A DNA stretch of 64,000 nt, from positions 1-64,000 of the forward strand of contig NZ_JAANOG010000005.1 of assembly GCF_019923745.1 (NCBI RefSeq). Reading direction: 5' to 3'. Of this stretch, positions 18,624-58,242 are shown in pieces (positions within the stretch are counted from its first letter, which is position 1; every line of letters starts with the position of its first letter). The position numbers and the translations under genes were made by a program. Source of the stretch: Aquirufa aurantiipilula (GTDB lineage Bacteria; Bacteroidota; Bacteroidia; Cytophagales; Spirosomataceae). Below the pieces are notes generated by a model. It worked only from the letters and a program-made list of their open reading frames with translations, had not been told where the DNA came from and ran no database searches.

Positions 18624-18640
18624 TATTGATTACCTTATAT

Positions 18641-18670
18641 AAAAAGGGGGCTCAAATGAGCCCCCTTTTT
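18641..18670 (+). terminator. Rho-independent terminator of fbaA
   Basis: Perfect stem GGGGGCTCA/TGAGCCCCC with a two-base loop, flanked by A5 and T5, 17 bases after the fbaA stop. Symmetric, so it could also end transcripts coming from the RAYT side. Confidence 0.92.
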
Positions 18671-18730
18671 ATTGATTTATTTCTTTTGGTGAGGATGATT
18701 GGGGGGTTAGGGATAGATTAAGTTTAGGGG

Positions 18731-18769
18731 TAAGGGTTAAGGGTTCAAGGGTTAAGGGTTAAGGGTTAA
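18731..18769. repeat. short tandem array of TTAAGGG-like units
   Basis: Five or so copies of a 7- to 8-base unit (GGGTTAA, once GGGTTCAA) in a row, running straight into the first palindrome of the RAYT unit. Looks like a microsatellite; no gene here. The rest of 18671-18854 shows nothing else recognisable apart from the palindrome. Confidence 0.8.
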
Positions 18770-18801
18770 GATTTGACAACTTTTAAAAAGTTGTCAAATC
18801 T
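18769..18801. repeat. REP-like palindrome, copy 1
   Basis: 33 bases: left arm AGATTTGACAACTTTT, one central A, right arm AAAAGTTGTCAAATCT. Perfect hairpin of 16 base pairs. Identical to copy 2 at 19623-19655; together they bracket the RAYT gene. Confidence 0.9.
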
Positions 18802-18854
18802 AATTGTCAAAGCTATTTGTTAAAGCTAATAATCAAATGATAAATACACACGCA

Positions 18855-19457
18855 CTATTCATCTATCAATGAAAGAATATCAATTTCTTTAAATTCTCTT
18901 GCATGAAAATCAATAAACTGTTTTTTTCCTCCAAACCACTCCAATACAAATTCTTTTTCAACGAAACTCTTCTTGAATTGTAAAATCTTCCCATAAGAGC
19001 TCCATTCCCATTGCCGGAAATCTGCAATTAGACCATGCTTCTGGGGATTCAAGTGTATATAGGCAATTAACGTAGAAAGGTCCTCTATTTTGGTAACTAT
19101 TGCTCTTTTAAAGGGAGTTTGAAATAGTGTACCTACGCGACCATGTTGTTTATTAAATGCCATAGTATATGATTGAAAGAACTTTTTTAGCCTACTTGAA
19201 ATCAGCTCATGTACAGATTTCCCATCCAGGTCACTTTCGCTAAAATGATTCACTTGAACTAAAAAATGAAAATGATTATCATTTAGACTAAAAGCAATCA
19301 CATTTACATAGCCCTCTAAATATTTAATCCATTGTCTTAAGAAATAAGAATAGTTAGATCTTGATTTGAAAATTGATTTCCTATCAACTCCTCTATTATA
19401 CAGGTGGTAATATTCTCCAGAATAAAATTGTGTGTAATAATGCTCTACATAGGCCAT
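18855..19457 (-). CDS. REP-associated tyrosine transposase (RAYT), Y1 HUH nuclease
   Basis: Single-domain transposase of the IS200-like Y1 superfamily, thought to move or maintain REP palindromes by nicking single-stranded hairpin DNA. HUH motif at His62-Phe-His64 (NDNHFHFLVQV) and catalytic Tyr133 in AYIHLNPQKHG; the start EHYYTQFYSGEYYHLYNRGV is the usual N-terminal signature (YHLYNRG). 200 residues with the ATG at 19457, full length for the family; the upstream TTG at 19487 is less likely. Intact frame. Flanked 53 bases downstream and 165 bases upstream by identical palindromes, its expected substrates. No accessory TnpB. Confidence 0.9.
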   Translation of the reverse strand: MAYVEHYYTQFYSGEYYHLYNRGVDRKSIFKSRSNYSYFLRQWIKYLEGYVNVIAFSLNDNHFHFLVQVNHFSESDLDGKSVHELISSRLKKFFQSYTMAFNKQHGRVGTLFQTPFKRAIVTKIEDLSTLIAYIHLNPQKHGLIADFRQWEWSSYGKILQFKKSFVEKEFVLEWFGGKKQFIDFHAREFKEIDILSLIDE

Positions 19458-19685
19458 GAAAAGGAATTTAAAAACGAACCTAACCAAAATGCACTACTTA
19501 AATCAGCTTATTTGGCAGAATATCAATAAGTTGATAAAATTGTTCAAGCAAGAAAATCGAAAGAATTTGATACTACCTTTGGAAAAGAAATTCCTATAAA
19601 TAGATTGGTCTTAAGAGTGCTTAGATTTGACAACTTTTAAAAAGTTGTCAAATCTTTAAAAATCTTTAAAGATAAATACTCACAA
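19458..19685. other. gap with REP copy 2 and a possible decayed coding remnant
   Basis: Between the RAYT start and the siroheme gene. On the plus strand 19552-19649 reads as DKIVQARKSKEFDTTFGKEI and on, with a stop just upstream, which resembles protein sequence but was not recognised. Apart from this and the palindrome nothing is seen. Confidence 0.3.
19623..19655. repeat. REP-like palindrome, copy 2
   Basis: Same 33 bases as copy 1 (AGATTTGACAACTTTT arm and its complement around a central A). Lies on the 5' side of the RAYT gene, 30 bases from the end of the siroheme gene. Confidence 0.9.
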
Positions 19686-58209: not shown

Positions 58210-58242
58210 AGATTTGTCAACTTTTGAAAAGTTGACAAATCT
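58210..58242. repeat. REP-like palindrome, copy 3 with compensating changes
   Basis: Left arm AGATTTGTCAACTTTT, centre G, right arm AAAAGTTGACAAATCT. Compared with copies 1 and 2, base 8 is T for A and its partner base 26 is A for T, keeping all 16 pairs; only the unpaired centre (G for A) differs besides. 40 kb from the RAYT gene. Confidence 0.85.

Follow-up and report, generated by a model that had tools for sequence, protein, structure and literature searches.

TnpAREP of E. coli (4ER8) and the REPtrons of gamma-proteobacteria combine a Y1 HUH enzyme of low gene copy number with palindromes that bracket its gene and with further intergenic copies dispersed through the genome. According to excerpts of the published work, the substrate of TnpAREP is the folded, single-stranded REP, which coevolves with its enzyme (PMC8266576; for gamma-proteobacterial REP/RAYT also PMC2817692). 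A canonical REP has a GT[AG]G foot, and the E. coli REP forms a bulged polar hairpin. In the parts of Quentin et al. (PMC6006769) used here, GT[AG]G defines canonical REPs and not every subclass; W94, Q95 and R104 are conserved in the subclasses with typical REPs, whereas subclass 2.6 is not conserved at these positions. Two inverted REPs form one unit, the REPIN, which forms long-lived intragenomic populations (Bertels and Rainey 2011, in excerpt). Earlier publications cover REP/RAYT systems, atypical structures flanking RAYTs in Bacteroidetes, and RAYT genes that contain REPs, as excerpts of four articles attest (PMC6006769; PMC3733652; PMC2817692; PMC8049555).

Two TnpAY1 subclasses resemble the locus described here, as far as the excerpts of PMC6006769 go. 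Subclass 2.6 (Bertels group 5) occurs mostly in Bacteroidetes. Its atypical flanking structures, termed weaker, are free of GT[AG]G and have copies elsewhere, and the GTAG-reading region of the enzyme is not conserved. Its motifs are NH[LIV]H, WQ and YIH[QN]NP, and 21 aa are inserted between alphaC and beta4. Subclass 2.4 (Bertels group 4) occurs in Bacteroidetes and various phyla. Its symmetric ‘double foot’ REPs contain GT[AG]G, its enzymes carry WQ and YIxNNP with a variable insertion between beta3 and alphaC, and in-frame REPs lie in the gene between HuH and Y.

We analysed a stretch of 64,000 nucleotides from Aquirufa aurantiipilula (hereafter the window), which contains the following features.

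18769 to 18801, no strand assigned: class A palindrome of 33 bp downstream of RAYT-A; perfect
18855 to 19457, minus strand: RAYT-A gene, HUH/Y1 transposase of 200 aa; ATG at 19457, stop at 18855
19059 to 19061, minus strand: putative catalytic tyrosine of RAYT-A, Y133
19266 to 19274, minus strand: H-F-H codons of the RAYT-A HUH motif, N61-H62-F63-H64
19623 to 19655, no strand assigned: class A palindrome of 33 bp upstream of RAYT-A; perfect, identical to the copy at 18769 to 18801
58210 to 58242, no strand assigned: dispersed class A palindrome, intergenic; variant TTTGTCAAC with a compensating change in the opposite arm

A sequence-only reading of the window had described an intact Y1 HUH gene between two identical, perfect 33-bp palindromes, and this description is borne out. 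RAYT-A carries NHFH and YIHLNP, as in a Y1 HUH domain with a single tyrosine, Y133, predicted to be catalytic. REP_Tyr_transpos is its sole NCBIfam match (E 1.5e-13, below the model's 80-bit cut-off) and Y1_Tnp its sole Pfam match; because both lie below cut-off, library names alone do not settle its identity. The AF2 model of RAYT-A (pLDDT 92, pTM 0.88) finds its top PDB fold match in 4er8, the E. coli RAYT with a REP hairpin (E 1.5e-8, TM 0.60/0.72), followed by the transposases of IS608 and ISDra2. Next to the left palindrome, short TTAAGGG-type repeats occupy window positions 18726-18767.

We compared the motifs of 141 proteins from as many RAYT loci, a set that includes duplicates (e.g. 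L034/L122, L040/L104) and 31 loci from the one genus. The HUH motif reads NHFH in 118 proteins, NHYH in 16, NH[VLI]H in five and NHTH in one, with one unmatched; the Y motif is YIHxNP, in which x varies. In the region of E. coli W94-Q95, a pattern allowing F or W matched 134 of the 141 proteins, all with LF, and the residue aligned to E100 is Arg in 133 of these 134 (the pattern permitted R, K or S). The positions aligned to W94/E100/H101/R104 are F, R, A or K, and T.

The clade of RAYT-A shares with subclass 2.6, as excerpted above, the host phylum, the flanking structures with copies elsewhere and the unconserved GTAG-reading region. It differs by the motifs NHFH, LF and YIHxNP and by structures that are strong and nearly fixed in length. 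In the model of RAYT-A, H82-105 and E117-120 are separated by 11 residues. With subclass 2.4 it shares the variable insertion between beta3 and alphaC (seen in the alignment, and bounded in the model by strand 62-69 and helix 82-105), the in-frame palindromes, the spread over Bacteroidetes and various phyla, and the symmetry of the repeat. On the other hand, GT[AG]G is missing here, and LF with YIHxNP stands in place of WQ and YIxNNP. By sequence and against these excerpts, the motif table appears to fit neither subclass, features being common to both and the assignments conflicting. The placement among known RAYT groups proposed in the sequence-only reading therefore reaches the E. coli RAYT as best fold match and stops short of a subclass.

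In the 3.08-Mb genome (G000), a loose end-anchored pattern finds 25 class A elements, 24 of 33 nt and one of 32. The window's exact arms recur in seven of the 25, and the remainder are arm variants compensated on the opposite side; a count allowing paired changes, as the sequence-only reading had proposed, finds the palindrome enriched. The palindrome pattern gave no match in 100 shuffles of the window, the reversed pattern none in the genome, and ten shuffled contigs held no palindromes with arms of at least 12. A chance origin of the palindromes is excluded. Both copies bracketing RAYT-A are built as 16+1+16, so that the 16 pairs around one central base read earlier hold for the copies in the window; the family as a whole usually has 15 bp + 3 nt + 15 bp and often lacks the 16th pair next to the central base.

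The same genome has a second RAYT at C34:233780, which is 39% identical to RAYT-A. It is bracketed by a different 33-mer pair, class B (AACGCTGTCAAGGTT-NNN-complement), of which the genome holds 43 copies with up to two mismatches. One genome thus contains two RAYTs, each between its own 33-mer pair. A third Y1-like match at C34:161302-161619 (L338; NF047646, 31.5 bits, below cut-off) lies near a class B palindrome. It is not detected by our 26-member RAYT profile, and a regex check there returned an acetyltransferase-like ORF, not a Y1 frame.

With that profile (E 1e-6) we searched 38 genomes of the genus, of which 25 are RAYT-positive and 22 miss the mark of 90% completeness and 5% contamination, and we counted five palindrome classes by pattern (A with at most one mismatch; B, C, D and E with at most two). 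In the matrix of five classes by 38 genomes, all 33 RAYT-positive cells hold 8-47 copies (median 24). Zero copies are found in 148 of the 157 RAYT-negative cells, the other nine having 1, 1, 3, 3, 4, 4, 5, 5 and 6. The cells are counted genome by genome and may not represent independent gains or losses; classes A and B, for instance, occur in the same six genomes. The expectation of the sequence-only reading that copy number follows the cognate RAYT agrees with these counts, and the outcome that it held to be fatal, a palindrome that is missing, or just as frequent in relatives without the RAYT, did not occur in the 38 genomes.

RAYT classes were first assigned from the bracketing palindromes; for those copies the argument is circular. 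The coupling goes beyond this circularity, because protein identity gives the same classes (0.67-0.99 within and 0.29-0.59 between, 32 proteins) and because the copies far exceed the bracketing two. The few copies left where the cognate RAYT is lacking (D in G163, G180 and G181; C in G147, G161, G165 and G178; E in G171 and G175) could be decaying since the enzyme was lost, or the gene may have escaped detection in an incomplete assembly. We also notice that the class E palindromes (L188-L190, L192, L193, L195-L197, L239, L240) mostly contain an internal mismatch and are inverted around the RAYT, unlike the symmetric classes.

RAYTs are recognised by low copy number and fixed position, and by bracketing palindromes that recur dispersed through the genome. 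Besides the dispersal, the genome has two dissimilar RAYTs in constant positions: the neighbour genes of RAYT-A are the same in five other species, those of RAYT-B are likewise constant in the six, and each of the six class A/B genomes has a single RAYT-A and a single RAYT-B. Both genes are under purifying selection, with dN/dS of 0.04-0.10 (11 of 20 pairs computable, genes with stops excluded) and dS from 0.65 up to saturation. Membership of the Y1 family and the inverted class E palindromes would also suit a minimal IS200/IS605-type IS, the palindromes being its ends and the solitary copies remnants or MITE-like derivatives. We regard this as improbable, since the single genes with constant neighbours lack the multiple copies of a mobile element, and since conservation of the solitary copies falls off past 33 bp and none contains the interior of an IS. 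In one of the six genomes (G160), the RAYT-A frame (L202, G160:C51:155751-156305) is interrupted by a single stop, and the genome has 14 class A copies, compared with 24-25 in the other five. RAYT-B of G167 also has one internal stop, but its class B copies show no drop.

All 27 distinct G000 sites examined lie outside ORFs of at least 100 aa (19 of class A, seven of class B and one inside-out B; a subset of all copies, namely those with DNA to hand). Convergent genes flank 14 of the 27, compared with 18 of the 113 intergenic gaps of contig C34, the sole background, which was scored by the same simple ORF rule (Fisher p 2e-4). Such placement is what host intrinsic or bidirectional terminators would show, with the RAYT caught between two of them by accident. 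This explanation is very hard to maintain. A T-run directly follows the hairpin 3' at only two of 54 strand ends, and classes B, D and E, and more weakly A, have on both strands an excess of pyrimidines in the 5' flank and of purines in the 3' flank, a bias that C lacks. Moreover, palindrome class tracks RAYT class, and a separate terminator-like inverted repeat stands beside one palindrome copy (window 18639-18672).

Beyond the genus, the 141 loci include 30 from a sample of the order and the best 80 of 575 RAYT loci from a scan of named genomes. The latter are labelled Bacteroidota, Chloroflexota and a few others, and some phylum labels may be binning errors because these loci are mostly MAGs. 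Within 500 bp of these best 80 RAYTs, or inside them, 78 of 169 palindromes (six of the 169 being N-runs) are exactly 33 nt long; in the more distant parts of these loci, which comprise four times as much DNA, 17 of 49 are (four of the 49 being N-runs). Over all 141 loci, 115 have a palindrome of 33 or 34 nt at a distance of up to 600 bp and 26 have none in that range. Similar paired palindromes of 33-34 nt occur at 92 loci, on both sides of the gene in 81 and with a further copy inside the gene in 25, and 49 loci have no similar pair. By source, 18 of 30 loci are paired in the order sample, 45 of 80 in the named set (best 80 of 575) and 29 of 31 in the genus, which gives 63 of 110 outside the genus. 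The suggestion of a distinct Bacteroidota class of REP therefore stands as to the lack of a GT[AG]G foot, but not as a restriction to Bacteroidota, since Chloroflexota-labelled and other contigs carry it, and earlier work had already described atypical structures associated with Bacteroidetes RAYTs (PMC6006769, in excerpt).

Palindrome sequence changes with the enzyme, and length hardly does. RAYT identity and arm similarity correlate with a Mantel r of 0.40 (n=67; 0/5000 permutations), of 0.305 in a thinned set below 70% identity (n=54; 0/5000), and, also positively, of 0.21 when fragmentary proteins and one mis-registered arm are included. Arms match at 12 or more of 15 positions in 0-2% of RAYT pairs below 40% identity, 32% at 50-60%, 89% at 60-75% and 100% at 75-90% (n=67). 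This climb suggests that specificity is passed on between close relatives and rewritten between more distant ones. Relatives of RAYT-A in other genera have class A arms, at loci of Mucilaginibacter (L082), Taibaiella (L087) and MAGs (L084, L085 on one side only, and L088 inside the gene only). A simple rule is broken by L079-L081, which at 51-53% identity come closest to RAYT-A among the best 80 of 575: their arms belong to class E and not to A. On a contig labelled Thiomargarita (L084, 2811-6567), 18 class A arm copies are packed in 3.8 kb, much of it at an alternating 39/45-nt spacing; it is either an array or a mis-binned contig.

A core pattern, TGWCAA..TTTNAAA..TTGWCA, was considered as a universal signature. 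It is true of some classes only, and palindromes were found locus by locus instead. In the order sample it occurs in 11 of 146 genomes, eight of which have a RAYT (55 of 146 overall); G087, G136 and G138 have the pattern and no RAYT match at E 1e-8.

In order to follow the element in place, we compared 11 sites that are orthologous between as many as six species; BLAST segments of their 3-kb flanks are 75-97% identical. The 15-nt arms have a mean per-position pairwise identity of 0.984 (lowest single arm position 0.77). The loops have 0.75 over the three central bases and 0.54 at the centre, and the 40 bp on each side have 0.56-0.57 (ungapped, hence understated where indels occur). Identity falls at the 33-bp boundary, the first flanking bases still reaching 0.91 and 0.85. 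The element is present in 63 of 66 site-by-species slots, two slots lying beyond a contig end or outside the sequence examined. At site s7 in G160 it is missing and leaves what looks like a decayed copy; no clean empty site, and so no movement, was seen at the sites compared. Both arms have changed at s11 in G167, and a G160 copy (C21, 142,270) has no counterpart in the G000 stretch examined. At the class B site s6 (G000 C34:276012), an inside-out element with exchanged arms occupies the same site in all six species.

The arm of 15 nt contains a second, imperfect palindrome. In 26 non-redundant arms, including the mis-registered arm of L083, position i is complementary to position 16-i in 129 of 182 cases (0.71); the 12 other registers give 0.17-0.37 and column shuffles 82.8 (sd 5.1; 0/2000). 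Predicted folding as ssDNA yields 15-bp hairpins of -13.5 kcal/mol for class A (3-nt loop) and -16.9 kcal/mol for class B, and no stable fold is predicted for the half-arms alone, so two separate mini-hairpins are unlikely compared with one long hairpin. Unlike the bulged polar hairpin of E. coli, the unit here is a symmetric, near-perfect 33-mer. Compared with a REPIN (known to us in excerpt), it likewise joins two inverted units, but its two 15-nt quasi-palindromic halves are merely 3 nt apart. We found no description of this nested 15+3+15 design of 33 nt, of the RAYT-lineage coupling or of the site-by-site conservation in the open-licence PMC full text that was searched.

The lack of a GTAG-type foot was read correctly from the window: GT[AG]G occurs near the foot at nine of the 92 paired loci and at 23 of 92 in a control window 20 nt away, which is no enrichment. 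Short class-specific flanks do exist, and the claim of no foot stands for GT[AG]G alone. At the first outer base, the mismatch T.G (equivalently C.A) is almost invariant in class B: 18 of 19 thinned copies show it and none has a pair, where shuffling gives 8.5. Pairs at this base number 0 of 11 in D (3.6 shuffled), 0 of 7 in C (3.0) and 19 of 72 in A (26.5), and one base further out in class E they number 3 of 31 (12.1); the thinned copies behind these counts are not fully independent, because orthologs with diverged flanks remain among them. Pairing outside the 33-mer falls below the shuffled expectation in class A (145 vs 175.4, sd 10.8) and class E (87 vs 110.3, sd 6.7), and in the same direction, not significantly, in B (53 vs 63.2, sd 7.9) and D (23 vs 28.0, sd 3.8). 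The exception is five bases out in class A, where 28 of 72 pair against 18.6 expected. Flank complementarity as guide or cleavage-site pairing is unsupported, outside pairing being below the shuffled level.

Palindromes are also found inside the RAYT genes themselves, 32 of them in 32 of the 141 loci (some loci duplicates), 28 of 33 nt and four of 34 nt; RAYT-A has none. At 31 of the 32 the position falls within residues 64-109, a loop that lies between beta3 and alphaC in the AF2 model, and excerpts of PMC6006769 place the in-frame REPs of subclass 2.4 at that same point. All three reading frames are used (8, 10 and 14), which suggests that palindromes entered this one protein loop independently and more than once. 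An insertion of 33 nt keeps the frame, because 33 is divisible by three; the open frame at these copies is in part by construction, because stop-free ORFs were selected.

Arms that are far better conserved than their flanks, while synonymous sites of the RAYTs are often saturated, and a 15-nt arm that is quasi-palindromic like a dimer site could also belong to double-stranded, operator-like sites of a host DNA-binding protein in chromosome or gene regulation, the RAYT merely carrying two of them. We consider this unlikely, if somewhat less so than the IS or the terminators. Five palindrome classes each track a RAYT class in one genus, many RAYT genes contain an in-frame palindrome of their cognate class, and each class would require a separate, co-varying regulator.

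Taken together, the gene, the palindromes of near-fixed length, their dispersal, their coupling to RAYT class and the conservation of their arms at fixed sites most likely belong to a REPtron, that is, a domesticated Y1 HUH transposase with a cognate 33-bp REP that has no GT[AG]G foot. For RAYT-A on its 33-mer, we infer hairpin binding, cleavage, movement and the strand used by analogy. In the likeliest mechanism, the element would fold as a 15-bp hairpin when it becomes single-stranded, for example on the lagging-strand template. RAYT would recognise the stem sequence of its own class, cleave at the element boundary through Tyr133, and paste or copy the 33-mer into other intergenic sites; each RAYT lineage would thereby maintain its own small population of dispersed palindromes. 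Specificity would reside in the stem itself and not in a GTAG foot, and strand choice might come from the mispaired flank or the loop, or neither strand might be preferred.

Judging by the inner symmetry and the inside-out element, the stem may be readable from both ends. A tentative extension of the REPtron reading, which we hold possible but on balance doubtful, is that the 33-mer is a fused REP dimer or ‘micro-REPIN’. Its two 15-nt quasi-palindromic units, 3 nt apart, would give a stem of two-fold quasi-symmetry that the enzyme, perhaps as a dimer, could read from either end or strand, and the RAYT would keep the resident copies uniform in place. If true, this would explain the inside-out arms, the fixed length with free sequence, and the avoided pairing beyond the stem. 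The populations would then be long-lived and stable in site, not hopping repeats, with separate enzyme-repeat pairs within one genus.

Our findings bear on two open questions, namely how RAYTs recognise repeats that have no GT[AG]G signal and what role REPs play. Many natural enzyme-repeat pairs, at least five of them in one genus, differ in sequence and hardly in length, which makes recognition mappable by swaps and covariation. Meanwhile, arms that stay constant while their flanks drift suggest that either the host benefits from these repeats or the enzyme keeps rewriting them.
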